Positions 616 through 26,339 of a DNA stretch of 37,515 nucleotides are shown here, piece by piece (within the stretch, counting starts at the first letter, position 1; each line of letters starts with the position of its first letter). The position numbers and the translations under genes were made by a program. The DNA comes from a virus. Below the pieces are notes generated by a model. The model saw only the letters and a list, made by a program, of their open reading frames with translations, searched no databases and had not been told where the DNA came from. The DNA is taken from positions 1 to 37,515 of the IMG/VR virus record IMGVR_UViG_3300031774_000059. One strand, 5' to 3'.

Positions 616-2232
616 TTAAACAAATTGTGTATCAGCGACGATTACTTTACCATAGAATTCAGGTCTTACCATCTTCTTAGCGTATCTTGTCATCACACCT
701 TTTCTTGGTGTAAAGTTAACAGGATCGTAAACAAGAGGAGTCATGATTAATGGTACATATGGTGCGTATACAGCTCCAGTTTCAAGGAAGTTACTTCCTC
801 TGAAACCCATAAGGACATCGTTTTCTAACATATAAGGGTTCTTATAAACCGTATATCTGTTATTCAATGCACCTACTTTTTGTACACCCATTGCATATGA
901 GTTATTAGTCGCGTCACCATCGGTATCAGCGGCGTATCCAGGAATACTCTCTATGATTGTAGCTGTTTCAGGTGAAATCACTATGAAATTAGCTCCACCA
1001 CGTAGAGTTTTCTGATGGATTGCGTTGGAAACAGACTGCATCTTGTTACCAAGAGTCTGGAACCACTCACCTTTAGTGTAAGCGTTAGAGTTACCACTAA
1101 CTTCACTAAAGACATTGCTTACTGAATCAAACTCAAATCCAACTTTAGCTGACCAATATTCGTGTTTTGCATTTGCGTTTTGCTTCAACATATCAAGGAT
1201 TTCCAAATCAATTTCCATTGAGATGTACTCACTTAACATTGAAGTCAATTCAGCTTCTGCATCAACACTATGATAAGCGTTAAGGTCTTGAGCTAGTTCA
1301 GGAGTCCATATTGCTTTTAACTTACGAGTCTTAGCAACAATAGATACTGAACGAAGTGCGATATCGATTTCAGGAATATCTACATCATCAGCACTGTTAG
1401 GTGCAGGTGTTGTAAATGAATCTTGTTCGAAATCACCACGAGTGATATCAGTTGGTTGTGAATGGTACTTAATACCAACACCACTATTTAATTCACCATC
1501 ACCAGTCTTAAAATAGAAATATACATTAGTATCATCATAATATGTATAAGCTGGGTAGGTTGCTGTAATATCAGATCCACTTAGTACAAAAGAACGAACA
1601 CCTTCAACATCAGGGTTAGTAAAGTTAGACCTTGCGACCGTACCTTTAATAATCTGATCAGATGCTGTTGTTGCAATTGATGCGGATAATGATTGTTCAA
1701 ATTCTACTTCTTTCCAAGAAGCGGATGCTACGGTTGGTGCTATCGTTGCAGTTGCTTGGTCATTGATTGAATATCCAAATTTACCTGCTCCATATAAACC
1801 ACCACTAGCGTCTGCGTTAGATGCTGAAGTATTACCATGAATGAACGAGTTCTTGTTATGATTACCAGTTTGGGCTGTACCATACTTGAAATCAAGATAG
1901 AATATAAGACCACTTGGTAGGTTCATAGGTTGAACACTAACAAAGTCTTGAGCTGCTAATTCACCAAAGATTCTACGAACCAATGGTAAAGCAACACCAC
2001 TCCATTCTTCTGAATTCGAAGCAGTACCAGTCTTTGATGATTCATCAATTAACTGACGTGCCTGATTTTCAAGAAGAACAGCCATTCCATGCTGTTTGTT
2101 TGTATCGGTAAGACCTTCAAGTAGTCCAGTAGGCTCCCACTTACTGACTAACTTTTGAGTCTCTGCCAAACGGCTTCTCTGAGAATCGTATGATTCCATC
2201 AAATTTTCGATGGAACTTAAATTGTCTGCCAT
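616..2232 (-). CDS. 23: Major capsid protein, T4 gp23 family
   Basis: A 538-residue protein, close to the 521 residues of T4 gp23. It forms the hexameric shell of the head. The N-terminal part reads GLLEGL near residue 37 and LLENQARQLIDESS near 53-66, the usual layout of a gp23 propeptide. LIDE64/S65 fits the gp21 cleavage rule (L/I)-x-x-E and falls almost exactly where T4 gp23 is cut (after E65). The mature part carries the conserved segment ending MRTRYAKKMVRPEFYGK-like near the C-terminus. The start has GGAG seven to eight bases upstream. It follows the scaffold gene by 39 bases, the same order as in T4, and ends in a strong terminator. I am very sure of the family. Confidence 0.95.
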   Translation of the reverse strand: MADNLSSIENLMESYDSQRSRLAETQKLVSKWEPTGLLEGLTDTNKQHGMAVLLENQARQLIDESSKTGTASNSEEWSGVALPLVRRIFGELAAQDFVSVQPMNLPSGLIFYLDFKYGTAQTGNHNKNSFIHGNTSASNADASGGLYGAGKFGYSINDQATATIAPTVASASWKEVEFEQSLSASIATTASDQIIKGTVARSNFTNPDVEGVRSFVLSGSDITATYPAYTYYDDTNVYFYFKTGDGELNSGVGIKYHSQPTDITRGDFEQDSFTTPAPNSADDVDIPEIDIALRSVSIVAKTRKLKAIWTPELAQDLNAYHSVDAEAELTSMLSEYISMEIDLEILDMLKQNANAKHEYWSAKVGFEFDSVSNVFSEVSGNSNAYTKGEWFQTLGNKMQSVSNAIHQKTLRGGANFIVISPETATIIESIPGYAADTDGDATNNSYAMGVQKVGALNNRYTVYKNPYMLENDVLMGFRGSNFLETGAVYAPYVPLIMTPLVYDPVNFTPRKGVMTRYAKKMVRPEFYGKVIVADTQFV

Positions 2233-2271: not shown

Positions 2272-3633
2272 TTACAGAATATTAGCTAACTTCTGAAAGC
2301 GTTTCTTCATATCAAATCCTTCTTCAATCACTTGTGGTGATGATTTAGGTTTGGTTGAAGCTACTGCTTTAGAGGCTGAACCTTTACTCTCTTTAATTGG
2401 TTTAGACTGCTTTGCGGTTTTGCTACCAAAAGATTCTGCCAAAGTTGAAAATACCAACTTGACTTCTCTAAGGTTTTTAGCTCTATCGAAAGTTTCCACC
2501 ACTTTTAACTTCTGTTCGTTATTTAAACCGTGTGCACGGAATAATTTGTTAGTAAACAAGAGTTTAGCATTAAGTAGATTAACTTCATTCAATTTTGAAC
2601 GAAGATACTTAACAACATTGCGATGTTCATTAAGTTCAGATGTGAGTTTAGAAATTGCTTCGTCTTTCTTTTCTGCTTCTTCTTCATCTACATCATCATC
2701 ACCTTCTGAAAGTGCTTTTAAGATTTCTTCAAGGTCGATGTCTTTGTCATCTTCTTCATTGACTTCTTCCTCATCTTCTTCTTTAATTGCACGATACTTT
2801 TGCCCATTTACTTCAACTAAGTCATCAACTACTTCAAGATTGTCATCTTCTTTTCCAGATTCAGAATCACTTCCTTCACCTTCAGGACCTTGTGCTCCTG
2901 TTTTAGACGAGTCATTTGCTTCATCATTGACTTTGTTATCACCAGCACCTATATCGGAAGATACATCATTCTCGGCTAATTCAGCTTCATCAGCTGTTTT
3001 AACTTCGTCTGAATCATGTCCGTCACCGACTGCATTTTCATCATATTCTTCATTAACATCGTCATCTTCACCTTCATCGGCTTCATCTTCGAGTTCTTTA
3101 AGAATAGATTCGAGGTCGAGTTCATCTTCATCAACTTCTTCTTCCTCTTTATACATTTCGTCAGCATCTTCTTCTTCTTCCTCAGATACTACTGGGGCGT
3201 ACTTTACACCATTGATTTCAATCACATCTTCTTCACCTTCATCAGCATCGTGTCCTTCACCTTCATCAGCATCAGCGATTTCATCGGCGTCCATAGCCAT
3301 TTCATCAGCATCAGCGATTTCATCGTGAGGTGCATCTTCTTCTTCATCAGCTACAGCTATTTCATCAGATGGTTCTTCACCAACTTCTGGCTCTACTGCC
3401 ACTTCAGGTTCTTCTTCTGCAGGTGCTTCAGGTGCTTCAGGTACTTCTTCTCCAGCCATTTCATCTTCATCATGAGGAGTTTCCTCATCTTCGATTTCAG
3501 ACTGAATCTTCTTTGAAAGCATAGATTGAATCCTTGGAGTAAATGCTTCTTCAAGAGCTATTTTAGCGTTTGCAAGTGCGGTCTCTCGGACTGCTTTAGC
3601 ATCTGCTATTGCGTCTTTTAAAAGATCATCCAT
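2272..3633 (-). CDS. 22: Prohead core scaffold protein, gp22-like (acidic)
   Basis: A 453-residue, extremely Glu/Asp-rich protein directly upstream of the capsid gene, where T4 has scaffold gene 22. The N-terminus (about 1-45) and C-terminus (about 325-453, basic and probably helical) flank a long acidic, low-complexity middle containing DEIADADE repeats. Two related blocks, near residues 137-192 and 272-316, each start V-E/I-x-NG-x-KY and run into an acidic stretch with a DLE-x-ILK core, which looks like an internal duplication. The C-terminus reads VIEEGFDMKKRFQKLANIL. Such cores are normally degraded by the prohead protease. The start has AGGAG upstream. Family assignment rests on composition and gene order more than on alignment. 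T4 gp22 is shorter (269 residues). Confidence 0.85.
   Translation of the reverse strand: MDDLLKDAIADAKAVRETALANAKIALEEAFTPRIQSMLSKKIQSEIEDEETPHDEDEMAGEEVPEAPEAPAEEEPEVAVEPEVGEEPSDEIAVADEEEDAPHDEIADADEMAMDADEIADADEGEGHDADEGEEDVIEINGVKYAPVVSEEEEEDADEMYKEEEEVDEDELDLESILKELEDEADEGEDDDVNEEYDENAVGDGHDSDEVKTADEAELAENDVSSDIGAGDNKVNDEANDSSKTGAQGPEGEGSDSESGKEDDNLEVVDDLVEVNGQKYRAIKEEDEEEVNEEDDKDIDLEEILKALSEGDDDVDEEEAEKKDEAISKLTSELNEHRNVVKYLRSKLNEVNLLNAKLLFTNKLFRAHGLNNEQKLKVVETFDRAKNLREVKLVFSTLAESFGSKTAKQSKPIKESKGSASKAVASTKPKSSPQVIEEGFDMKKRFQKLANIL
2686..2820 (-). repeat. Internal duplication in the scaffold gene, copy B
   Basis: This encodes roughly residues 272-316 of the scaffold protein, beginning LVEVNGQKYRAIKEED and including DIDLEEILKALSEGDDD. 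It matches copy A at 3058-3225 in its order of features: NG-x-KY, an acidic run, then a DLE-x-ILK helix and an acidic tail. Confidence 0.55.
3058..3225 (-). repeat. Internal duplication in the scaffold gene, copy A
   Basis: This encodes roughly residues 137-192, beginning VIEINGVKYAPVVSEEEE and including ELDLESILKELEDEADEGE. See copy B at 2686-2820. The copies are diverged, so the duplication is old or functionally constrained. Confidence 0.55.
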
Positions 3634-3789: not shown

Positions 3790-4053
3790 TTATTTTTTGT
3801 ATTGTAATCGTTCTTTCTTAATTTTTTCTTTTAGTCCTGCTGTTGGTGGTTCTCCACACCAATCTGGATTCATTTGGTGTTGTTTAATCCAATTACGAAC
3901 CTTTCCCAACTTTCTCTGTTCTGACTTTTTTGCTGATGGTTTTTTATAGTATTGTCTTTCTCTCAACTCTACCATTAAACCACTATCTTTAATTTTTCTT
4001 TTTAATAACCTAAGAGCGAACTCTACATTATTCTTTTTTACTTTTACTTCCAA
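3790..4053 (-). CDS. rpsU: Ribosomal protein bS21 homologue
   Basis: An 87-residue basic protein whose first two thirds match bS21 of the bacterial 30S subunit. FALRLLKRKIKDSG (about 12-25) and ELRERQYYKKPSAKK (about 29-43) correspond to the conserved FKRKxxKxG and (R)RRxFYEKPS blocks. bS21 sits near the anti-Shine-Dalgarno end of 16S rRNA and helps select mRNAs at initiation. The protein is longer than E. coli bS21 (71 residues), with an added C-terminal segment containing NPDWCGEP. The start is TTG at 4053, preceded by a full GGAGG, the strongest ribosome site I saw in the window. It lies inside the capsid-assembly cluster, between a core-type protein and the scaffold. Phage-encoded bS21 is known, but this position is notable. 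Confidence 0.88.
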   Translation of the reverse strand: MEVKVKKNNVEFALRLLKRKIKDSGLMVELRERQYYKKPSAKKSEQRKLGKVRNWIKQHQMNPDWCGEPPTAGLKEKIKKERLQYKK

Positions 4054-9136: not shown

Positions 9137-9757
9137 TTACTCTCCTCTAATTATGTCGTTTATAATACTTTCAACTTTACAATACTTACCACAGGTTCTA
9201 CCTTCGGTAATTGGTATTTCGTTTCCAACACTTTCTTTCATAGGATATAAGAAAGCTCCGTGTGTGGATGGATTTGATACGAAATCAAAAGCTATTAATT
9301 CGAAATCATCTCCTACTTGTTGTCCATCACCCTCACTCATTGGTTGAACTGAACCCATTCCACGAGAACTGATACCCAACTTAATACCTGCTTTAAATAA
9401 TTCTGTTAATATATTACCACTTGGTGTTCCAAGAACCTCGACCGTACCGACTAAGTTCTTACCTTCCCAATGCATTTCGGTAATATTATGAGATACATTC
9501 TGTAAATTAACTACTGATGATTCAGGATGGTCTAACTCACCCATTGCACGTTTCTGTTTGATGAAACCCTCATCATACTTACTCGATTCTCTTGCCAAAA
9601 TCTCATGTGGATAGACTCTACCATTTTGATTCTTAGCATCTGACCTCTGCAATACACCATGAACCACTAAACGACCATTATTCTGTTTAATTGATTCGTT
9701 TATCTGTTCTCTTGAAATCTCAAAAGGTAAATAATCTACTATTAATTGTTTTGACAT
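9137..9757 (-). CDS. 21: Prohead protease, T4 gp21 family
   Basis: A 206-residue serine protease that matures the T4-type prohead by cutting scaffold, capsid and internal proteins after (L/I)-x-E. The length matches T4 gp21 (212). Visible motifs are [10 protein letters not shown] (45-54), GELDHPES with catalytic His77, and GISSRGMGS with the serine at 130 or 131, in a herpesvirus-type protease fold. EQINE/S near residue 21 and PITE/G near 185 fit the enzyme's own specificity and may be self-cleavage sites. The start has AGGAG. It lies between portal and scaffold, as in T4. Confident. Confidence 0.93.
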
Positions 9758-17202: not shown

Positions 17203-17490
17203 TTACATCTCCATTATTTGTTTGTATGTAGATTTACCCTCTAATTTTTTAGTTTTAGCTGGTTCATCAAAATCACTATCATCATTTTTTTTATATTTTC
17301 CGAATCCGTCCTTATCCCTAACCATTTTTTCATCAACGGGTTTTGGTATTCTAAAATTAACTACCTTTCTTCCGTTTATTGTTGGCATTCCATAATCATC
17401 TTTACCAATTTCTTTTACTTTAATTTTTTTGTTTTTAAATCTACCACCTAAGATGGTATCTCCAACATTTATATCTATTGTAATGGCCAT
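17203..17490 (-). CDS. Small conserved phage protein (MAITIDINVGDTILGGRFKN)
   Basis: A 95-residue protein with AGGAG before the ATG. The N-terminal half (DTILGGRFKNKKIKVKEIG, then YGMPTINGRKVVNFRI) looks like a compact SH3-type beta barrel. The C-terminal third is charged and probably disordered. I recall close relatives in marine phage genomes with no known function. Confidence 0.7.
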   Translation of the reverse strand: MAITIDINVGDTILGGRFKNKKIKVKEIGKDDYGMPTINGRKVVNFRIPKPVDEKMVRDKDGFGKYKKNDDSDFDEPAKTKKLEGKSTYKQIMEM

Positions 17491-18176
17491 TATTTAACTC
17501 CTTTAGGTAACAAATCAACTAACTTACCACCTTTCCATTCTCTACCTTTAACTGCACCCATTATTCTGTGGTCTTTCCATTTATTCCATAATTTTTTATT
17601 ACCTGCAAATACCGATTCTCCACCTTGCTGTACTTGTCTATATCCACTTACACTTCCCATTTCCTTAGAACCAGGTTCAGGTGTTGCTGGTACTCCACCA
17701 CTTTCTGTTCCCTCTGGTGGTGTTGTTGGTTTAATTAAAGTTTGAGCAGTTGTTACAAAATTTGCTGTTTCAGGTGGAATGGTATATTCTTGTTTTCTGT
17801 GAAATCCGTGTATTCCATAAGTTCTTTGTCTCGGTGATAATGGTGGTGTGTCATCTCTTAACTCATCAGATTTAATTTCTGAATTACCATCGGGATCACT
17901 TAAATATTTGTAAAGTTTACCTGCATCTCTTTTTGCCCGTCTTTCATTATTCTGACTATCAGGACCCCCATAGATATTATCTGATGCTGGAAAATCAACT
18001 TGTTGCATTCCACGAGTTAAACTTGCAGGTCCTACATATCGTCTTTCACCTCTTTTGGTAAATAAACCATCGGGCCATGCATCTCCTGTGGTTATTCCAG
18101 ATCCACCATATCCTGAAGTACCCGTTGGTGAAGCTTCGTTAATTAATTTCCACAATCCTTTTTCGAATATGTTCAC
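17490..18176 (-). CDS. Putative packaged protein, tagged N-terminus (GTG start)
   Basis: I choose GTG 18176, which gives 228 residues, has GGAG 6 bases upstream and overlaps the previous stop as TAGTG. TTG 18188 is the alternative and has no ribosome site. The protein begins MNIFEKGLWKLINEAS, so the tag would be cut at LINE/A. The rest is a Gly/Pro/Ser-rich, largely disordered chain. It has a short motif QVDFPASDNIYGG resembling QLHFPKADNPYD in the protein at 24865-25224, and a basic C-terminus. Its ribosome site lies within the last codons of the preceding ligase fragment. Function unknown. Confidence 0.7.
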   Translation of the reverse strand: MNIFEKGLWKLINEASPTGTSGYGGSGITTGDAWPDGLFTKRGERRYVGPASLTRGMQQVDFPASDNIYGGPDSQNNERRAKRDAGKLYKYLSDPDGNSEIKSDELRDDTPPLSPRQRTYGIHGFHRKQEYTIPPETANFVTTAQTLIKPTTPPEGTESGGVPATPEPGSKEMGSVSGYRQVQQGGESVFAGNKKLWNKWKDHRIMGAVKGREWKGGKLVDLLPKGVK

Positions 18177-18925
18177 TAATTTCTCCAACTTATCATAAGG
18201 TTTTGTCCATCAAGTTTTTCAGTTACATTATCTTCCCTATCTAACTGACCACCTAAACCTCTTTCTATGATATTTTTTAAATCTTTAAATGTTAAATTTT
18301 TATCATCAAAAGGATGTGCCATATGTCCGTATGCTCCACCTTCTGTGATTAATTCTCTAAGTTCATCATCCCACCAATCTTTTGAAAGTGGTGAATATTT
18401 CTCAACATGAAGTCTTGGACGACCACCTTTAAATTTCTTTTTTGTTTTCTTTGCCGCTAAATCAGTATCTGCTTCGTTATTTTCTTTACGAGTTTTAGCA
18501 TCAATTCCTGATGCTATAGGTGGGCCGGCCATTTGTTGGTCTTTATCAACTCCCATCCACTTCATGACTTTCCAACCCAAATTATCCATTACATTCCGTA
18601 AAGTTTTTTTATACTTTTTTACCTCTCCGTGAGATATTGGATTTGTTGCTCTATGTGACATAGTGTAATCTTCTTCTGGATCCATTGCTCCATCACTTAG
18701 TATATAATCAATTACTTTCCAACCTAAATCATTCTGTAATGATTGTATCCAATCTTCAGACTCGGATTTGTATTGTCCCAAAGATTTGTAAAATGTAGGT
18801 GGCCCGTCATCAGTTGGTGCATTATTTGTTGCCGAACCAGCCTCATTTAAAATATCTTTAATATCATTCTCAACTAAAAAATCACCAATGACATCATCAC
18901 TAAATTCTTTTAAGTAATCTCTCAT
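18176..18925 (-). CDS. Tagged protein ending in the N-terminal (motif I) fragment of an RNA ligase
   Basis: A 249-residue protein. The N-terminal tag is long (MRDYLKEFSDDVIGDFLVEN, then DIKDILNE/A). The middle has two LGWKV repeats (about 67 and 116). After ELITE195 comes GGAYGHMAHPFDDKNLTFKD and finally TEKLDGQNLMISWRN at the very end. KLDG (K237) is nucleotidyltransferase motif I, holding the lysine that is adenylylated in DNA/RNA ligases, but the chain stops 12 residues later, long before motifs III-V. Those motifs are in the protein at 20636-22366. The ATG overlaps the previous gene by 4 bases; no ribosome site. Either a trans-acting half-enzyme or a broken one. Confidence 0.72.
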   Translation of the reverse strand: MRDYLKEFSDDVIGDFLVENDIKDILNEAGSATNNAPTDDGPPTFYKSLGQYKSESEDWIQSLQNDLGWKVIDYILSDGAMDPEEDYTMSHRATNPISHGEVKKYKKTLRNVMDNLGWKVMKWMGVDKDQQMAGPPIASGIDAKTRKENNEADTDLAAKKTKKKFKGGRPRLHVEKYSPLSKDWWDDELRELITEGGAYGHMAHPFDDKNLTFKDLKNIIERGLGGQLDREDNVTEKLDGQNLMISWRN

Positions 18926-19476
18926 CTTGTTTCAACTTTGTTTTTATCTAACCACCATTGAACTTTAGCAACTAACATATCCTCATCTCTACCACCTCGT
19001 CTTGCACTAAAACTATTTAAATAATCTTTAACTAAATAGTAAGCTGGTTCTTCATCTTTTGAACCAGGTCTGATATTTCCTACAACTTGCGATGCTTGCA
19101 TATCAGTATTTACATGGTACTTTAAATAATCATAATCAAATATACCATCATTATATCCTGATGTTTGAACCCAATTTAAAATCTTATCACCTTTATCACT
19201 TCTCCAATCCCAATCATTTTTGTATTTAGAATGTCCCCATCCTTGTACATAAGCGTAATACTGATACATTAAGTTAGTAGGTTGTCTTTTCTTACCAGGC
19301 TTACCTCTATAATCTAATTTATGAAAACCATCTTTCATTACTTCTTTACAAAGTTTTATTGTTTTTGATGGTATTTTAGGTTTAGCGCCAGTTGCCTTTT
19401 TAGCCATATTTATGACTTTATGAAAGTCACTATGTGTTACAATTCGTTCTACTATTAATTCTTTTAATTTAATCAT
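18922..19476 (-). CDS. Putative packaged protein with capsid-targeting-like tag
   Basis: A 184-residue basic protein with tag MIKLKELIVER (cleavage expected after LIVE10). It is rich in aromatic residues (NLMYQYYAYVQGWGHSKYK, DWDWRSDKGDKILNWV) and looks folded rather than disordered. The C-terminus has DEDMLVAKVQWWLDKNK. The ATG has only a weak GGAAA site and overlaps the previous gene by 4 bases. I do not recognise the domain; the tag suggests it travels inside the head. Confidence 0.7.
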   Translation of the reverse strand: MIKLKELIVERIVTHSDFHKVINMAKKATGAKPKIPSKTIKLCKEVMKDGFHKLDYRGKPGKKRQPTNLMYQYYAYVQGWGHSKYKNDWDWRSDKGDKILNWVQTSGYNDGIFDYDYLKYHVNTDMQASQVVGNIRPGSKDEEPAYYLVKDYLNSFSARRGGRDEDMLVAKVQWWLDKNKVETR

Positions 19477-19733
19477 CTTTTTTCCAAATCAAATGCCCTG
19501 GTTAACATTGCACCAGCATTTTGAAGTTTAAGACGAGCTTCATCATATTTTTTAAAGTATCTCATTAAAGTTCTATTCTTACTCTTTTTAATATCATCCT
19601 CAAGTTCATACCAAAGTTTCCCATCTCGTGCCTTATAAATGTAATTACTTCCAACCCTTAGTAATTTTTGGTGATTCATAGAAATATCATCAAGGTCTAC
19701 CTTTTCTTCTAATATTTTCTTCATTTTAATCAC
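19473..19733 (-). CDS. Small putative packaged protein with tag (GTG start)
   Basis: An 86-residue protein from GTG 19733, with GGAG 7 bases upstream. The tag is MIKMKKILEEK. The rest is charged and helical (NYIYKARDGKLWYELEDDIK, then YDEARLKLQNAGAMLTRAFD). A promoter-like motif lies about 30 bases upstream, so it may head a small transcript with the next two genes. Function unknown. Confidence 0.65.
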   Translation of the reverse strand: MIKMKKILEEKVDLDDISMNHQKLLRVGSNYIYKARDGKLWYELEDDIKKSKNRTLMRYFKKYDEARLKLQNAGAMLTRAFDLEKR

Positions 19734-19762
19734 TTATTTTCTCCGATATATATAGTTTCACA

Positions 19763-19778
19763 CATATAAATATTAAAC
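19763..19778 (-). promoter_or_regulatory. Putative late promoter motif, copy 5
   Basis: The minus strand reads AGTTTAATATTTATATGTG between the zinc-ribbon gene and the tagged gene starting at 19733. One base differs from the core of the other copies. Confidence 0.42.
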
Positions 19779-20369
19779 TTCTAAACTATTGAGTTTTTCT
19801 TCAACTTCTTCTTTAATTTTATTTAATTCTTCGAGGGCCTCGGTAGACATTTTTTCAACTTGTTCCTTATTCTGACTCCACTTTTCTTGTTGTAGTTCTA
19901 TTTCTTTAACACCAACCGAATCATAAATCTCTACTGGTTTAGAAGCCTCTACTTTCCAATCTTCTATACTTGAAATTTGGTCTCGTATATAAGAAAGTTG
20001 GTTGTTTAACACCTTACTTTCTTCCCACTTCTCGTATTTTCCTTCGATACGAAGTTTATTTTCAAATGTTATTTGACAATCAAAACAATGTTGATGTAAT
20101 CTATACATCTTATCATCTAATCGTTTTTTCATTACCTTTTTACACTTAGGACAAAACCAAGGCATTCTAGCATCCTTTAATGCAGCTGAGCGTTCATTTT
20201 TCTTTTCTCGTTCTAATCTTACTTCTTCTTCTCTTTTTTTCTTTTCGTCCAAATCTTCCATCTGAACATAAATCTTTTTCTCAACTTTATCACCACGAGC
20301 AACACGCTTAATATTTTCTATTTGTCTTTCTCGTTCTCTGTGATTAGTTGATAAAATACTATCACTCAT
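19773..20369 (-). CDS. Zinc-ribbon coiled-coil protein, conserved in T4-like marine phages
   Basis: A 198-residue protein. Charged helices flank a central zinc-binding module near residues 69-105: WFCPKCKKVMKKRLDDKMY followed by LHQHCFDCQ, giving CxxC and CxxC pairs with nearby histidines. The following ENKLRIEGKYEKWEE and the long C-terminal coiled coil are features I recall in similar marine phage proteins. AGGAG precedes the ATG. It has no capsid tag, so it may act in the infected cell. A nucleic-acid or assembly adaptor role is possible, but nothing shows it directly. Confidence 0.75.
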   Translation of the reverse strand: MSDSILSTNHRERERQIENIKRVARGDKVEKKIYVQMEDLDEKKKREEEVRLEREKKNERSAALKDARMPWFCPKCKKVMKKRLDDKMYRLHQHCFDCQITFENKLRIEGKYEKWEESKVLNNQLSYIRDQISSIEDWKVEASKPVEIYDSVGVKEIELQQEKWSQNKEQVEKMSTEALEELNKIKEEVEEKLNSLEV

Positions 20370-20372
20370 ACT

Positions 20373-20636
20373 CTAACTCCTTTGTAACGAATCAAGTTTA
20401 AACTTAAATTTTAAGTCCTCAAGTTCTTGATCTCTTTTCATTAATTCTAATTCGGCTTGTATTGCCTTAACACTATTTTCTTGTTCTATCTGTGTTTCTA
20501 ATGTTGATACTCTATTTTCTAACTTGTACCATCCACCACCTAATGCACCTACCAAACCAATAATATTAATAATAAATTTAATATTATTCATTTTTTTCAT
20601 CTTAAAGATTTCTTGTATATCTTCGAAATCTTCCAT
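20373..20636 (-). CDS. Small membrane-anchored coiled-coil protein, spanin-like layout
   Basis: An 87-residue protein with a membrane helix near residues 17-37 (NNIKFIINIIGLVGALGGGW), then a coiled coil (LENRVSTLETQIEQENS onward). The ATG overlaps the previous stop as TAATG, with no clear ribosome site; an internal ATG at residue 13 or 16 is possible. Inner-membrane spanin or holin accessory is a topology-based guess. Confidence 0.62.
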   Translation of the reverse strand: MEDFEDIQEIFKMKKMNNIKFIINIIGLVGALGGGWYKLENRVSTLETQIEQENSVKAIQAELELMKRDQELEDLKFKFKLDSLQRS

Positions 20637-22366
20637 TAGAATGTCATCAATCCTGTTATTTGATTAATAGGTGCAAATGCTCCTGTAAATTTAAATGTCT
20701 TTCCGTTGTATTTAAAAACTATTCCTTCACTTGGAACTATTGCCTTCAGACCACCAATCTTATTTAATTTATCCAATTGTAATTTTAATGTGTTAAGTTT
20801 TTTCAAATCCTTTTTACTTCTCACATCTTTAATTGCTGCATCTAATTGTTTCTTTACTCGTTGAACCGTAGAGTCAGGATTTGCTGCTAACCAACCACTT
20901 ACATTTGTCATTATTTCTGCACCAACTTCAAAGAACAATTCCTCAAATGGTTTCATATTCTTTTTAACCATTTTTGCGTGGTCTACTTTATCCGTAGTCA
21001 ATACCCAATCTAAAAATTCAGGATGATTTTTAAAATCTTTTTTAATCATTGGAACTTTATACGACTTATCAAAAAATGCCCATCTTTTAGTTAATTTTTT
21101 TAATGGTGCCTTTGGAATTGTAAATCCGTGTTGTTTTGCTGCATTAAATATAAATTCTTCCCAATAGGTTTGGTGATATACTGAAAGTGAATCACTATCT
21201 TTTAAGTTATATTGTTTCTGTAATCTATTTAACTTATTTATAAAATACTTTTTCTTCTTTTCAAAATTTTGATGTTTAGGTACGGTTAAAAAATTAGGTT
21301 TTCCAATCTTATATCGTTTCTGTATGTTTTGGTTGACTTGTTTAATCATACCAGCTAACATTCTTGCACTATCTTTGACCTCTCCAATTGCATTTCCTTC
21401 ATCATCATATTCGAGTGCTCCGTGAAATACGATTTCTGCCTTGTCATAATTTATCACATTAGATGACTTTGGCCACATAACCTCAAGATTCATCCAAGCC
21501 TTACCATTCTTGAATATTCTGTTTCTTTGTTTTTCAGAAAGAGAACCGATGGCCTTTTCCAAATCCTTCATAGCAAAACTAAATGCGTCCGATATATCCC
21601 CCCTACCTTTAAACTTTGAAATTATTCCACCTGTGGTTAGTGCTGTCTTACCACCATTCTTCAAGTGTCCTTTGTTTCTAGCGGCTACTAATCTTTCTGT
21701 AAGTAAATTTTCTTTGATCTCAAATAACTTTCTAAACTTGTTGGTCATCATTTGATAAACACCTTTATCGAAATAACCAAATGCCTGTTTAAATAATTTA
21801 GGTCTTTCTTTATCATCTATTTTAGGTGAACCGAGTAATTCTCTCATTACCGTTCCACTAACTTCTTTTCCACCAACCCTAACTGATTGATGTGGAGCTA
21901 CCATAAAGTATCCGTGTTCTTCATATCCCTTTAGATTATTCTTGTGTTTTCTATAATCTTGGAAATACGATAAACCACCACTTTTCTTTTTACCACCTGC
22001 CAATCTACCAGCATCCTTAGCTCCAAATATATATATCACGGCTGTAGTCTCGGAATCGTATTTTTTTAGCACATTATTTGCCACCAATGGAACTTTTTCC
22101 TTTATAATACGATTCTTAGGAACACCCATCTTTACCATATGACGAAGTTTTTCTCTGTAATTCATAGGGTGTTTTGGTGGTTTTTTGATGTCTGATGTGG
22201 TGATGTAAGCATCATCTACCTTTGACTTTAACCACTTGTAAGTTTTTAAGTGATGTGGGCCAAATGGTTGATACCTACCACCATAGATTCCTACAATCTT
22301 TTTAATCTTAGGTCTATCTTCTTCGGGTAGTAAATCTCTTATCAATTCTCTTGTTAATTTATCCAT
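20636..22366 (-). CDS. NMN-adenylyltransferase-like domain fused to RNA ligase C-terminal part
   Basis: A 576-residue, two-domain protein. Residues about 20-215 are a cytidylyltransferase-fold domain: GIYGGRYQPFGPHHL (26-40) is the (H/T)xGH-type nucleotide site and VSGTVMREL (169-177) the ISSTxxR-like motif, as in NMNAT and related NAD enzymes. After KENLLTE223 the chain jumps straight into RLVAARNKGHLKNGG, followed by WMNLEVMWP (about 291-299, motif III-like), PSEGIVFKYNGK (545-556, motif IV) and FKFTGAFAP (motif V-like) of an ATP-dependent RNA ligase. There is no KxDG motif I in this protein; it is in 18176-18925. GGGAG precedes the ATG, which overlaps the previous stop as TAATG. Confidence 0.8.
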   Translation of the reverse strand: MDKLTRELIRDLLPEEDRPKIKKIVGIYGGRYQPFGPHHLKTYKWLKSKVDDAYITTSDIKKPPKHPMNYREKLRHMVKMGVPKNRIIKEKVPLVANNVLKKYDSETTAVIYIFGAKDAGRLAGGKKKSGGLSYFQDYRKHKNNLKGYEEHGYFMVAPHQSVRVGGKEVSGTVMRELLGSPKIDDKERPKLFKQAFGYFDKGVYQMMTNKFRKLFEIKENLLTERLVAARNKGHLKNGGKTALTTGGIISKFKGRGDISDAFSFAMKDLEKAIGSLSEKQRNRIFKNGKAWMNLEVMWPKSSNVINYDKAEIVFHGALEYDDEGNAIGEVKDSARMLAGMIKQVNQNIQKRYKIGKPNFLTVPKHQNFEKKKKYFINKLNRLQKQYNLKDSDSLSVYHQTYWEEFIFNAAKQHGFTIPKAPLKKLTKRWAFFDKSYKVPMIKKDFKNHPEFLDWVLTTDKVDHAKMVKKNMKPFEELFFEVGAEIMTNVSGWLAANPDSTVQRVKKQLDAAIKDVRSKKDLKKLNTLKLQLDKLNKIGGLKAIVPSEGIVFKYNGKTFKFTGAFAPINQITGLMTF

Positions 22367-23952
22367 TATACTCTCCCACCTTTATCGAAGGTTGTAAATT
22401 TCTTTAACTTATCAAATGCTCTAAATTTTTTCATCTTTTCTTGTTTTGTCCATTTCATCTTATCAAATACTTTCATTCTCATGTGTTGTTTTACTATCCA
22501 ATAAATATCAAGTGGATTACCACCCATTGATTTTATCCACTTGGCGTATTTCTTAACCAATTTAGCTGATACATGCTCATGTCCATAATGAGTCCAAAAC
22601 CCTTTCTTTGGATGTAATTTAGCAGTTGAGTCTTTTCCTATATCGTGAAACAATGCTGATAGAGCGAAGTCTATATCACCTGTTTTAAGTGCCCTATTCG
22701 TAACAGCAATAGTATGTTTTAAAACATTACCTTCAGGATGTGCATCTCTCCTCTGGTCGTAGTTTTTTAGATTATACACGCGTTTCTTCAAGTCACTTGG
22801 TAACGCGTTATAAATGTCTTTGAATTTCTTCGGTTTTTTCCGAACTGCTATTTCATTTAAGAATTTATCTTTTTCCATATTTTGTATTGCTTTACCGATG
22901 TCCCTTCCTTTTAAATCACTTGAAACATCACTACCCCTTACCGATAGTTTAAATCTAATTAATTTTTTAAAATCTTTTCCAATGTACTTACCCCATTTAA
23001 GAATTTGACCTTTACTCAATTTGGTCTTTTCTTGAAACTTTTTAATCAAAAAAATATTCTCAGGTTTAAAATTCTGTAATGAATTTAAAAACTGAATATC
23101 AACTATTTCTTGAGTAGGATAGGCTAAACCATTTAATTTCCTTATTGAATTTACATCATTTTTTCGTAAAATCCAAGCTAAAAATAAAATATAATCGTTT
23201 TCATTTATGTATGGAATCTTAACTTGTAATCCAGGTAATATCTGTTTTGTAAATCCTAACGAATCAGCAAGCTGTAAATACCTCTTGGGTGATTTTGCCT
23301 TTCTAATCGACTTGACAAACTCATCTCTGATTCTTTCTTTACTCACACCTTTAAGACTTGGATTCTGTCTTAGTGCCCTTTCAGTTTCCTTACCTAACTT
23401 ACCACCGAGTGCACCTTGAAATCTTAATGCCCTCATCTTTCTTAACGGATCTTCATCAAATCTTTCGACAGCATTTCCAACGGTTCGAATCTTCTTCTTT
23501 TTTAAATCTGCTATACCACCAACCAAGTCTACAATTTCACCCCTATCCATATCGTAGAACAACGCATTTATGGTCAAATCCCTTCTTTTTACATCACCCT
23601 CGATGTCGGTATAATCAACTGAACTTGGGCGTCTCCCTTTACCAATATCCTTTCTGAATGTTGCTATTTCGTGTCCACCAACTATCACGACACCGAATTG
23701 TTTTCCAACCTCTACGGTTTTCAATCCACCTTTTTTTGCTATTTGTAATACCTCATCGGGTTTAGCATCGGTGGCTAAATCAAAATCTTTTGGACTCTTT
23801 CCTAATATTGCATCCCTTACTGCTCCACCCACAACAAAAAGTTTTTTCTTGTTTTTCTTAAAAAGCTTGTGTATCTTCCTGATGTCAGAGGGGATGTTGA
23901 GCCTAAATTTAGAATACTCATTCAACGGAATTAAATTAGAAAGATAAATCAT
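22366..23952 (-). CDS. cca: CCA-adding enzyme / poly(A) polymerase family with HD domain, tagged
   Basis: I choose ATG 23952 (528 residues), which overlaps the previous stop as ATGA and gives tag MIYLSNLIPLNEY. A start at 23988 would add 12 residues. The class II nucleotidyltransferase head shows FVVGGAVRDAIL (about 39-50), DFDLAT (57-62, metal-binding acidic pair), RRDLTINALFYD (123-134) and DEDPLRKMRALRF (about 166-178). An HD domain follows near 405-470, with LKH412 and FHD436-437, as in E. coli Cca, where it has 2',3'-cyclic phosphodiesterase and phosphatase activity. It repairs or builds tRNA 3' CCA ends. The capsid-like tag on such an enzyme is unusual. It lies just before the NMNAT/ligase gene. 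Confidence 0.87.
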   Translation of the reverse strand: MIYLSNLIPLNEYSKFRLNIPSDIRKIHKLFKKNKKKLFVVGGAVRDAILGKSPKDFDLATDAKPDEVLQIAKKGGLKTVEVGKQFGVVIVGGHEIATFRKDIGKGRRPSSVDYTDIEGDVKRRDLTINALFYDMDRGEIVDLVGGIADLKKKKIRTVGNAVERFDEDPLRKMRALRFQGALGGKLGKETERALRQNPSLKGVSKERIRDEFVKSIRKAKSPKRYLQLADSLGFTKQILPGLQVKIPYINENDYILFLAWILRKNDVNSIRKLNGLAYPTQEIVDIQFLNSLQNFKPENIFLIKKFQEKTKLSKGQILKWGKYIGKDFKKLIRFKLSVRGSDVSSDLKGRDIGKAIQNMEKDKFLNEIAVRKKPKKFKDIYNALPSDLKKRVYNLKNYDQRRDAHPEGNVLKHTIAVTNRALKTGDIDFALSALFHDIGKDSTAKLHPKKGFWTHYGHEHVSAKLVKKYAKWIKSMGGNPLDIYWIVKQHMRMKVFDKMKWTKQEKMKKFRAFDKLKKFTTFDKGGRV

Positions 23953-24863
23953 ACTTGGTCTATTATTCCTTCTCTGTCCTTGTACCATTTTCTAAATTTT
24001 GCTGGTGTACCGATTGTTATTTTGTTCTTGGGGACATATTTGAGAATTTCTTTTTGCCAAGGTCCTGGTTTATTGTCTCCCCATTGTTGCATCCAATATC
24101 CATCCCTTGTAATCCTCTCCATTACAAAAACATCTATAATCTTAGGATTATATATAAGAATTTCATTCCACCATGCCGATGGTTTATCTTCTGGATTTAT
24201 AAGATTCTTCTTTATTTTTGATTTATTCTTTACCAACCACTTGTTTTGCCAATCAAACCACTCTTTTATAAATTTACTAATATAAGGTCCTGCTTCTTTT
24301 ACTGTTAATTTTTTATATTCATCATATTCAATTTCATCATCTGTCATCCATAAGTCATGAAATACCGCATCTATTCGTCTAATTTTATTTTCCATTGTTT
24401 CAAGTTTCTTAAAGAATCCAGCTCTTTTCATAGCATTTTTAAAAATCATTCTATCACCAGTTATGTAATGTGATTCTATCCATCTACGACCAGTCTTATC
24501 GGGTACTGTATCGAAGTCCATGTATCGTTTAGCAAGTAAGTTTCCCCTAACATAAAATATAACTCCACCCGTACCTGTTTGAATACCTCTACCTTTAGCA
24601 AGTGGTGAGTCATTGTTAGCACGAGTGAATGTTGATATGGATTTTTTCTTACCTATTATCTTACCAATTGTTTTTATGTGGTCTGGATTAGTAACATGAA
24701 ATGAACTAATAGGTATTTTACCAAACATCTTTTCGTGTAATTTAGGATAGAGTGCTATCTTATCCCCATATTTTATATTATCTAATGTTTTTCTTGTATG
24801 AGCAGGATACCACTTATTATCGTCTAACCAATCTTCTGTTAATAATTGTTTTAATTTAATCAT
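23949..24863 (-). CDS. Tagged protein, possibly ADP-ribosyltransferase-like
   Basis: I choose ATG 24863 (304 residues) because it yields the tag MIKLKQLLTED and follows the previous stop by one base. An earlier ATG (24902) lies inside the previous gene. After the tag come ISSFHVTNPDHIKTI, KKKSISTFTRAN and TGTGGVIFYVRGN, then TGRRWIESHY. H/R, S-T-x-T and E in this order are faintly like the ART fold, the fold of T4 Alt, which is itself packaged. The C-terminal half is tryptophan- and lysine-rich and unrecognised. The ART idea is a weak structural guess; the tag is what I am surer of. Confidence 0.6.
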   Translation of the reverse strand: MIKLKQLLTEDWLDDNKWYPAHTRKTLDNIKYGDKIALYPKLHEKMFGKIPISSFHVTNPDHIKTIGKIIGKKKSISTFTRANNDSPLAKGRGIQTGTGGVIFYVRGNLLAKRYMDFDTVPDKTGRRWIESHYITGDRMIFKNAMKRAGFFKKLETMENKIRRIDAVFHDLWMTDDEIEYDEYKKLTVKEAGPYISKFIKEWFDWQNKWLVKNKSKIKKNLINPEDKPSAWWNEILIYNPKIIDVFVMERITRDGYWMQQWGDNKPGPWQKEILKYVPKNKITIGTPAKFRKWYKDREGIIDQV

Positions 24864-24864
24864 A

Positions 24865-25224
24865 CTATTTCTCAAAATCCGTTGAATAATCTTGACCACC
24901 ATATTTATCCCAACTTGCTATAGTGTCATAAAAATCTTCATATTTAAGTCCAGTATTGATAACTCTCTTTATCACCTGAACTCTCTGAATACTCTTATCA
25001 TCACCTCTACCTTTTGCTGCATCATATGGATTATCCGCCTTTGGAAAATGAAGTTGAGTATATCTACCCTTCTCAAACCAAGGCTCGGGTTTACTACTAT
25101 CCACTCCTAACTTTCGTTTTCTTCGTGGATTCGTCCAACCTGTTTCGGGTTCACCTGCATCCGAACCGCCCGTTGAACCGTTGTTATGTGAATACTCATT
25201 AAGTATATCCACAAGTTTAATCAT
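24865..25224 (-). CDS. Small putative packaged protein with capsid-targeting-like tag
   Basis: I choose ATG 25224 (119 residues), giving tag MIKLVDILNEYSHNNG. An earlier start at 25248 would add eight residues inside the ferredoxin gene. It is hydrophilic: GSTGGSDAGEPETGW, then YTQLHFPKADNPYD, similar to a motif in 17490-18176, and a helical tail (RVQVIKRVINTGLKYEDFYD). The start overlaps the ferredoxin gene by 8 bases. Function unknown. Confidence 0.68.
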   Translation of the reverse strand: MIKLVDILNEYSHNNGSTGGSDAGEPETGWTNPRRKRKLGVDSSKPEPWFEKGRYTQLHFPKADNPYDAAKGRGDDKSIQRVQVIKRVINTGLKYEDFYDTIASWDKYGGQDYSTDFEK

Positions 25225-25520: not shown

Positions 25521-26309
25521 TTAACTCCTTTTTAACATTTGCTTTAAATCTTTTTTTGGTACTAAACTTTGTTGTTTCATCCATTTTTTTGCTATTTTAT
25601 TTTTAACTGGTTTTTTCATAAACTTATCAATTCCTTGACCAACTAACATCTTAAATTTCTTTTCTGCCTGTTTTGGTTCTAAGTGTTTATTGTTATCCAC
25701 AATTAAAAAATTACTACCACCGAACAACCCTTGAAAGAATGCCATATTTTTCTGAACATCTTTCCAACTATCCTCTACCACATCTGCTGGTAATACTCGT
25801 GGTCTTGTTTCGTTTCTTTGCTGTGCAACTTCTAATGAGGTTGTTACGAAAACCATATAAGTATCATAACCTAAATCTATCAATCTTTTTCTTTTCTTTT
25901 GTACGGATTTAAATTTATGACCAGTTCCATCGATAATAACGCCCAAACGACCTTCCAAGTATTGTGCCATTCTCTGTTTATTTAGTGATTTAGCATAACC
26001 TCGTAAACCACTATATCCTGCATAATCTGGATCTGTAAGTTGTTTAAATAATTCGTCAGGAAACTTTTGAATGTTAAGGTAATCTACGGATGAATCTTGC
26101 CCATAAAATTTCTTTAAAAGCATTTCTAATTCTTGGTCTTGATTAACCATTTTTAATCCATACTTGGAAACATTTATTTTTTCAGGAATACCGAATAAAC
26201 CCTTTGCAACATAGGATTTACCACTACCAGGTCCTCCAGCCAAGAATATACCTTTAAAGATACCTGGATCTCGAACTCCTTCGTTTAGTAAATCTACCAA
26301 TTTTATCAT
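25521..26309 (-). CDS. P-loop kinase (zeta-toxin/polynucleotide-kinase-like), tagged
   Basis: I choose ATG 26309 (262 residues), with GGAG 7 bases upstream and tag MIKLVDLLNEG; the upstream TTG would be too close to the GGAG. Walker A is GGPGSGKS (25-32), followed by a region reading VIIDGTGHKFKSVQKKRKRL (Walker B-like) and ATP-binding lid arginines in QQRNETRPR. This is the architecture of zeta toxins and of phage polynucleotide kinases. The substrate cannot be read from the sequence. With the nearby CCA enzyme and ligase parts, RNA 5'-end repair is plausible; a UDP-GlcNAc or other small-molecule kinase is the alternative. A promoter-like motif precedes it. Confidence 0.82.
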   Translation of the reverse strand: MIKLVDLLNEGVRDPGIFKGIFLAGGPGSGKSYVAKGLFGIPEKINVSKYGLKMVNQDQELEMLLKKFYGQDSSVDYLNIQKFPDELFKQLTDPDYAGYSGLRGYAKSLNKQRMAQYLEGRLGVIIDGTGHKFKSVQKKRKRLIDLGYDTYMVFVTTSLEVAQQRNETRPRVLPADVVEDSWKDVQKNMAFFQGLFGGSNFLIVDNNKHLEPKQAEKKFKMLVGQGIDKFMKKPVKNKIAKKWMKQQSLVPKKDLKQMLKRS

Positions 26310-26339
26310 AAGCAAACTCCGTTTAGGTGTAATGATTCA

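Follow-up and report, generated by a model that had tools for sequence, protein, structure and literature searches.

ATP-dependent RNA ligases such as the archaeal Rnl3-type enzymes and T4 Rnl1 belong to the covalent nucleotidyltransferase superfamily (PF09414) and use the lysine of a KxDG motif (motif I) as nucleophile. Several enzymes of T4-like phages are encoded in pieces, namely Aeh1 nrdA, gene 43 (DNA polymerase) and T4 topoisomerase; these genes are split by inserted homing endonucleases or spacers, and Aeh1 NrdA has been shown to be active (PMC2988022). Here we describe a probable RNA ligase that is likewise encoded as two polypeptides, in a 37.5-kb viral contig (IMG/VR record IMGVR_UViG_3300031774_000059, positions 1 to 37,515; this whole stretch is called the window below). 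Every gene discussed lies on its minus strand. Unlike the T4-like genes-in-pieces, the two parts are in swapped order, each carries a protease-type site, and no homing endonuclease was recognised between them, where four open reading frames (ORFs) lack a convincing Pfam match and match neither HNH nor GIY-YIG. With the RNA ligases it shares the KxDG lysine, but motif I is on a separate polypeptide, the chain being broken between motif I and the rest. It has conserved segments resembling motifs III, IIIa, IV and V, and its top fold matches come from the same superfamily, though the Pfam and PDB matches are weak.

An annotated natural split of a phage RNA ligase 1 is that of rnlA in Acinetobacter phage 133 (rnlA-A/rnlA-B; HM114315, L292:32227-34304). 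On translation, this gene proves to be cut before motif I, with KADG in rnlA-B; unlike the window ligase, it is collinear, has an HNH-like ORF between its parts, keeps motif I and all that follows on one chain and belongs to a different ligase family. Trypanosome editing ligases with their KREPA partners also have part of the ligase in trans, but only the OB-fold, the catalytic domain being whole (PMC4366279). Compared with the known phage splits, the present one differs in four respects: the cut is inside the active-site domain, the order is reversed, there is no recognisable endonuclease and the junctions are tagged. We know of no natural ligase of the superfamily with a catalytic domain cut apart between motif I and the remaining motifs; a limited literature search for such a split found none. 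The features concerned are given below, a slash marking the boundary of a piece.

18179-18340, minus strand: LigN, the motif-I piece, 54 residues (GGAYGHMAHPF..TEKLDGQNLMISWRN), residues 196-249 of the protein at 18176-18925; matches residues 1-55 of continuous ligases
18341-18349, minus strand: I-T-E, predicted prohead protease site directly before LigN (ELITE/GG); gp21 motif L/I-X-E (PMC9026906)
18476-18841, minus strand: 'WKV' module (LGWKV..LGWKVMKW), carried by the LigN gene; continuous relatives have a homologue of it between NMNAT and ligase in one fused protein
19773-20369, minus strand: ZNR, zinc-ribbon-like gene (CPKC..C..C); zinc ribbon read from the Cys pattern, gene supported by synteny of 293 sequences; no Pfam match for the protein
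20639-21694, minus strand: LigC, the other 352 residues of the ligase (RLVAARN.. NLEVMWP.. IVFHG.. SEGIVFKY..KFTG); matches residues 55-405 of continuous ligases at 71% identity
21695-21703, minus strand: L-T-E, predicted prohead protease site directly before LigC (NLLTE/RL); [LIM]xE lies near the core in split C leaders
21728-22300, minus strand: NMNAT-like nucleotidyltransferase domain (GRYQPFGPHHLKTYKWL .. VSGTVMR); PF01467, E 0.003 in the window protein and 4.8e-5 in a homologue (L048)

The 249-residue protein at 18176-18925 ends ELITE/GGAYGHMAHPFDDKNLTFKDLKNIIERGLGGQLDREDNVTEKLDGQNLMISWRN, in which K237 is the lysine of TEKLDG, and its motif-I block (GGAYGHM...SWRN, window 18179-18340) is exactly 54 residues long and is followed by a TAG stop. 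The 576-residue protein at 20636-22366 begins with the NMNAT-like domain and then reads NLLTE/RLVAARNKGH; KxDG was looked for in its sequence and was not found. A continuous relative (L060) used as query gave exactly two matches in the window, residues 1-55 at 18176-18340 and residues 55-405 at 20642-21697, and no further copy of the ligase. Read in the direction of transcription, the C-piece precedes the motif-I piece. Judged from these alignments, LigN and LigC together make one complete ligase. The first-pass annotation of the window had already read a ligase divided in swapped order between these two genes, with K237 in a C-terminal block of about 54 residues and no KxDG in the NMNAT-like domain of the larger protein, and on all of these points it was right.

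The window was compared with a set of 293 sequences from scans of viral contigs, which includes the window itself and a few metagenome-assembled-genome and GenBank contigs. The ligase is continuous in at least 140 distinct relatives, and about 190 of the sequences hold it as LxE/GGAYGHM..EKLDG..SWKDGKLIAARNKGH without interruption; the continuous marine-phage form that the first-pass annotation had mentioned does exist. Split pieces, 25 distinct N and 33 distinct C, come from a large number of independent marine viral contigs and fall into two classes. The gene order is NMNAT-LigC, zinc-ribbon gene, WKV-LigN, terminase in class a, to which the window belongs, and NMNAT-WKV-LigC, zinc-ribbon gene, a small gene (tag plus LigN), terminase in class b; continuous phages have NMNAT(-WKV)-LigN-LigC, zinc-ribbon gene, terminase. 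The zinc-ribbon gene thus immediately follows the ligase in continuous phages and separates the two pieces in the window, and in both split classes the motif-I block lies beyond it, downstream of the C-piece. By this comparison LigC has kept its place and the motif-I block lies past the zinc-ribbon gene, in line with the earlier suggestion that the block had been moved.

A misassembled or chimeric contig might have been suspected when the reading was based on one contig only, but the window's junctions recur at 74-100% identity in contigs from many different metagenomes, and class b is found with a different junction. Misassembly of the window contig is ruled out by this recurrence, and we give it practically no weight. 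Fourteen split contigs, which are genome fragments, were searched over their whole length for ligase matches; each of the 14 gave a single N match, ending at residue 55-62, a single C match, beginning at residue 47-55, and no whole ligase. Both pieces are present wherever a split contig spans both places, and none of the 293 sequences has a locus with two copies of either piece or with a whole ligase plus a piece. The split was not seen in annotated phages, only three relatives being found among 50,697 records, all of them continuous and named, where at all, cytidylyltransferase-like.

The first-pass annotation had allowed that the two parts might be dead rather than work in trans. A dead or decaying ligase left behind by rearrangement would account for motif I lying apart from the other motifs, with no single chain carrying them all, but the conservation of the pieces speaks strongly against it. 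Columns at least 98% identical in 140 continuous ligases (17 on the N side, 46 on the C side) were taken as near-invariant, and the split pieces keep 425 of 425 such cells in N and 1515 of 1518 in C, 1940 of 1943 in total; all 17 N-side columns are kept in every split N-piece. The median pairwise ratios of nonsynonymous to synonymous change (dN/dS, Nei-Gojobori, per class and half) are 0.056 (N) and 0.088 (C) in class a and 0.019 (N) and 0.047 (C) in class b, with ample synonymous change in both halves. Both halves are, by this measure, under purifying selection, and the split form persists over two well supported clades. Because dN/dS is 0.02-0.09 in both halves and the near-invariant residues are kept, we regard the split ligase as not dead; the dead gene is ruled out, with very little probability left to it, and working in trans is favoured. 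It is also hard to credit that the pieces have taken separate functions, for example regulation by the motif-I piece and RNA binding by the C-piece. The different carrier proteins, and neighbours that differ between classes a and b, would suit such a divergence, but the catalytic residues are invariant together on both sides and the pieces co-occur where a contig spans both places.

In a tree of the C-part, class a (support 100/97) and class b (100/99) join with support of 83/81 inside the continuous family. The simplest reading, moderately supported rather than firm, is that the split arose once within that family, two independent splits being the less simple one. Two routes best explain the swap itself: a tandem duplication whose first copy then lost LigN and whose second lost LigC, or a move of the motif-I block past the zinc-ribbon gene. 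One continuous locus (L133:5318-9300) has the unique order ZNR-WKV-NMN-LigN-LigC-TAG232, TAG232 being the gene that follows LigN in the window, and so holds the whole ligase in the downstream slot; of the continuous loci compared, it has the flanks closest to those of the window. The ligase there has diverged too far to be a direct ancestor of the split form, but the locus shows that the downstream slot is able to hold a full ligase copy.

The position of the cut was examined in an AlphaFold2 model of a continuous relative (44-row alignment; predicted local distance difference test score, pLDDT, 89; predicted template modelling score, pTM, 0.82). Strands 46-53 and 56-60 form a beta-hairpin after motif I, and the break, at 54-55, falls in its turn. 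Both pieces added, the split costs the ligase at most about one residue. The C-terminus of LigN is freely variable (N, T, A, V, S, G, D, ED, EK), which fits a free chain end. E41, K42, D44 and G45 are near-invariant in the 140 continuous ligases and are kept in all split N-pieces, and the key residues of NLEVMWP, IVFHG, EGIVF and KxTG are near-invariant too, the labels motif III, IIIa, IV and V being given to these segments by analogy. The top 26 PDB fold matches are all ATP-dependent RNA or DNA ligases, led by archaeal RNA ligases and T4 Rnl1. The match of the continuous ligase to Pfam RNA_ligase (PF09414, E 0.016) is weak and below the cut-off, and searches of PHROGs and of PDB sequences with the window proteins and the continuous ligase gave no usable family name for the ligase. 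Given the motifs and the consistent fold ranking, we consider the identification as a ligase well founded, and RNA is, by family inference, the likely substrate.

The two junctions share a repeat, LITE and LLTE, that had been noticed before, but what it is had been overlooked: it is the L/I-x-E motif of a T4-type prohead protease, and the window phage encodes such a protease within a T4-type head module comprising the major head protein (phrog_138), the S77 prohead protease, the portal and the large terminase.

9137-9757, minus strand: prohead protease, T4 gp21 family (Peptidase_S77); PF03420, E 3e-26; phrog_207, E 9e-51

In T4, gp21 cleaves after L/I-X-E, and internal proteins are routed into the head by short N-terminal capsid targeting sequences that end in a gp21 site (PMC9026906). 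Scored as [LIM]xE (some class b sites are MxE), the motif marks the two new N-termini of every split phage: it immediately precedes GGA in 49 of 49 distinct split LigN leaders and lies no more than four residues from the core in 31 of 31 distinct split LigC leaders. At the C-junction position it is present in 0 of 99 continuous ligases. Of 82 distinct continuous ligases, 63 have LxE ahead of the mature start. In Microcystis phage Mel-JY01 the ligase is continuous and reads IIAE/GG at this place. Other continuous lineages nearly all read KELLLM/GGA, the DNA being AAGGAG-TTATTATTA-ATG, a ribosome-binding site and a start codon; such an internal site and ATG at the GGA start occur in 22 of 24 of those lineages versus 11 of 99 others. 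In 24 continuous loci (e.g. L062, L066, L073) an in-frame internal start within a long ORF replaces the protease site. On this evidence one mature N-terminus is reached in two ways, by protease site or by internal start, and the internal start independently marks GGA as the true N-terminus of the ligase.

Split inteins, trans-splicing RNAs and programmed DNA rearrangements join split genes elsewhere, but nothing at these junctions resembles them. The N-piece stops one to three residues after SWR/K with no intein sequence, and the C-piece core follows xE directly or within four residues, without IntN or IntC; the window has no Rfam family match, and all split contigs have the same order, none being joined. 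Rejoining by any of these means is exceedingly improbable.

The neighbouring genes bear similar sites. An N-terminal hydrophobic-xE tag (MIKLKELIVE, MIKLVDLLNE and others) is found within the first 30 residues of 17 of the 41 window proteins, where 2.0 ± 1.2 would be expected from internal stretches; none of the eight sugar-cluster genes has one. These capsid-targeting-like tags suggest a large set of packaged proteins in window 3-26315. The neighbours are:

17203-17490, minus strand: IGDT module gene, homologous to the N-terminal module of polyproteins; matches in 33 polyproteins
17490-18188, minus strand: TAG232, the tagged gene that follows LigN (MNIFEKGLWKLINE/A, read from an internal GTG); matches no family
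22366-23988, minus strand: CCA-adding-type tRNA nucleotidyltransferase with HD domain; PF01743, E 1e-31; HD, E 6e-9; phrog_2244, E 3e-66
25521-26315, minus strand: P-loop kinase, polynucleotide-kinase-like, tag MIKLVDLLNE/G; PF13671, E 6e-10; phrog_505 polynucleotide kinase, E 1e-7

In relatives these enzymes are also found fused. The kinase is part of 49 polyproteins, and the CCA-adding enzyme is fused in one of 2463 residues (L054). Three polyproteins of 1774-2463 residues (L054:1668-9056, L048:2370-7691 and L287:829-6555) join varying sets of kinase, CCA-adding enzyme, NMNAT-like domain, WKV module and ligase, with LxE sites flanking the modules. The fusion with kinase and CCA-adding enzyme ties the ligase to RNA-end chemistry, and the LxE sites in the fusions support a modular, protease-delimited set of cargo. 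An extra domain in the L287 polyprotein is homologous to window 23949-24902, a tagged protein (MIKLKQLLTE/D) without a Pfam or PHROG match that resembles ADP-ribosyltransferases by eye only. The polyproteins resemble the polyvalent proteins, which are large phage proteins with many domains, believed to undergo injection and processing; in the part of that account drawn on here, processing is ascribed to built-in metallopeptidases, and no polyprotein that combines an RNA ligase or CCA enzyme with prohead protease sites is reported (PMC5512222). With T4 IPI-III and Alt, which are processed by gp21 (PMC9026906), the window has in common an S77 protease, short N-terminal hydrophobic-xE leaders and a site at the boundary of the piece; the window differs in that its cargo would be two pieces of one enzyme, with internal as well as N-terminal sites.

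Other proteins of the head region were also noted. The major head protein (window 616-2232) has LIDE at residues 61-64, which we take to be close to the T4 gp23 cut position and consistent with LxE specificity. Adjoining it is a strongly acidic protein with many LxE sites (window 2272-3633), which has no PHROG match and may be the gp22-like scaffold core. Window 3790-4053 encodes a phage ribosomal protein S21 homologue (phrog_21469, E 1e-11).

The explanation that best joins these observations is that one ligase is made as two polypeptides and acts as a nicked enzyme. The N-piece would bring the motif-I lysine at the C-terminus of one protein, and the C-piece the other motifs behind an NMNAT-like domain; with the break in the hairpin turn after motif I, the adjacent strands could pair without a covalent link. 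The S77 prohead protease would cut at the L/I-x-E before each piece, after residue 195 of the 249-residue protein and residue 224 of the 576-residue one, and free the pieces from their upstream modules, and the products, GGAYGHM..SWRN (54 residues) and RLVAARN..F (352 residues), would equal the mature continuous ligase and assemble into a nicked, active one. In T4-like phages such sites are a mark of capsid cargo, and here the neighbours are tagged alike; the pieces are therefore probably packaged as virion cargo, and they would be delivered with the DNA, together with the kinase and the CCA-adding enzyme, to mend RNA cleaved by the host. We hold this explanation as a whole, from trimming by the protease to a nicked active ligase that is probably cargo for RNA repair, with fairly good confidence.

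Several observations weigh against it. The L/I-x-E motif is short (density 0.017 per residue), and a site alone is no proof of cleavage. The fold matches are weak singly (best PDB E 0.049, template modelling score about 0.23), and the 576-residue protein alone was modelled poorly (pLDDT 56, shallow alignment), a result that neither supports nor excludes assembly. An intact ligase copy may lie elsewhere in the genomes of split phages, the contigs being fragments. About one-fifth of continuous ligases use the internal start, so that packaging may not be universal in the family. This last point also suggests a cytoplasmic ligase in some relatives, and two-chain enzymes are known in T4-like phages (split NrdA, split DNA polymerase; PMC2988022), so the pieces might instead assemble in trans in the infected cell as full-length cytoplasmic fusions, the L/I-x-E motifs not being used for packaging. 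The protease-type sites stand exactly at both new N-termini, with none near that position in continuous chains, and the surroundings of head genes and tagged neighbours also tell against such an arrangement; we think it rather unlikely.

A broader proposal, for which we see about even chances, is that a marine T4-like clade packs an RNA-repair kit of ligase, kinase, CCA-adding enzyme and NMNAT-like enzyme processed by its prohead protease, and that part of the clade delivers the catalytic domain of the ligase as two swapped, separately tagged pieces that become a matched, active enzyme only once both have been trimmed. If the kit is packaged, tRNA repair would be possible at the moment of infection, ahead of any phage gene expression, and a delivered counter to anticodon-nuclease defences would be directly testable. 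A swapped order with no homing endonuclease to be recognised points to a possible way in which enzymes become split, protease sites acting as the joints of modules and the capsid protease letting the phage shuffle, fuse and even cut its enzymes freely. Natural two-piece ligases cut at a hairpin turn would, in addition, be ready-made split reporters.

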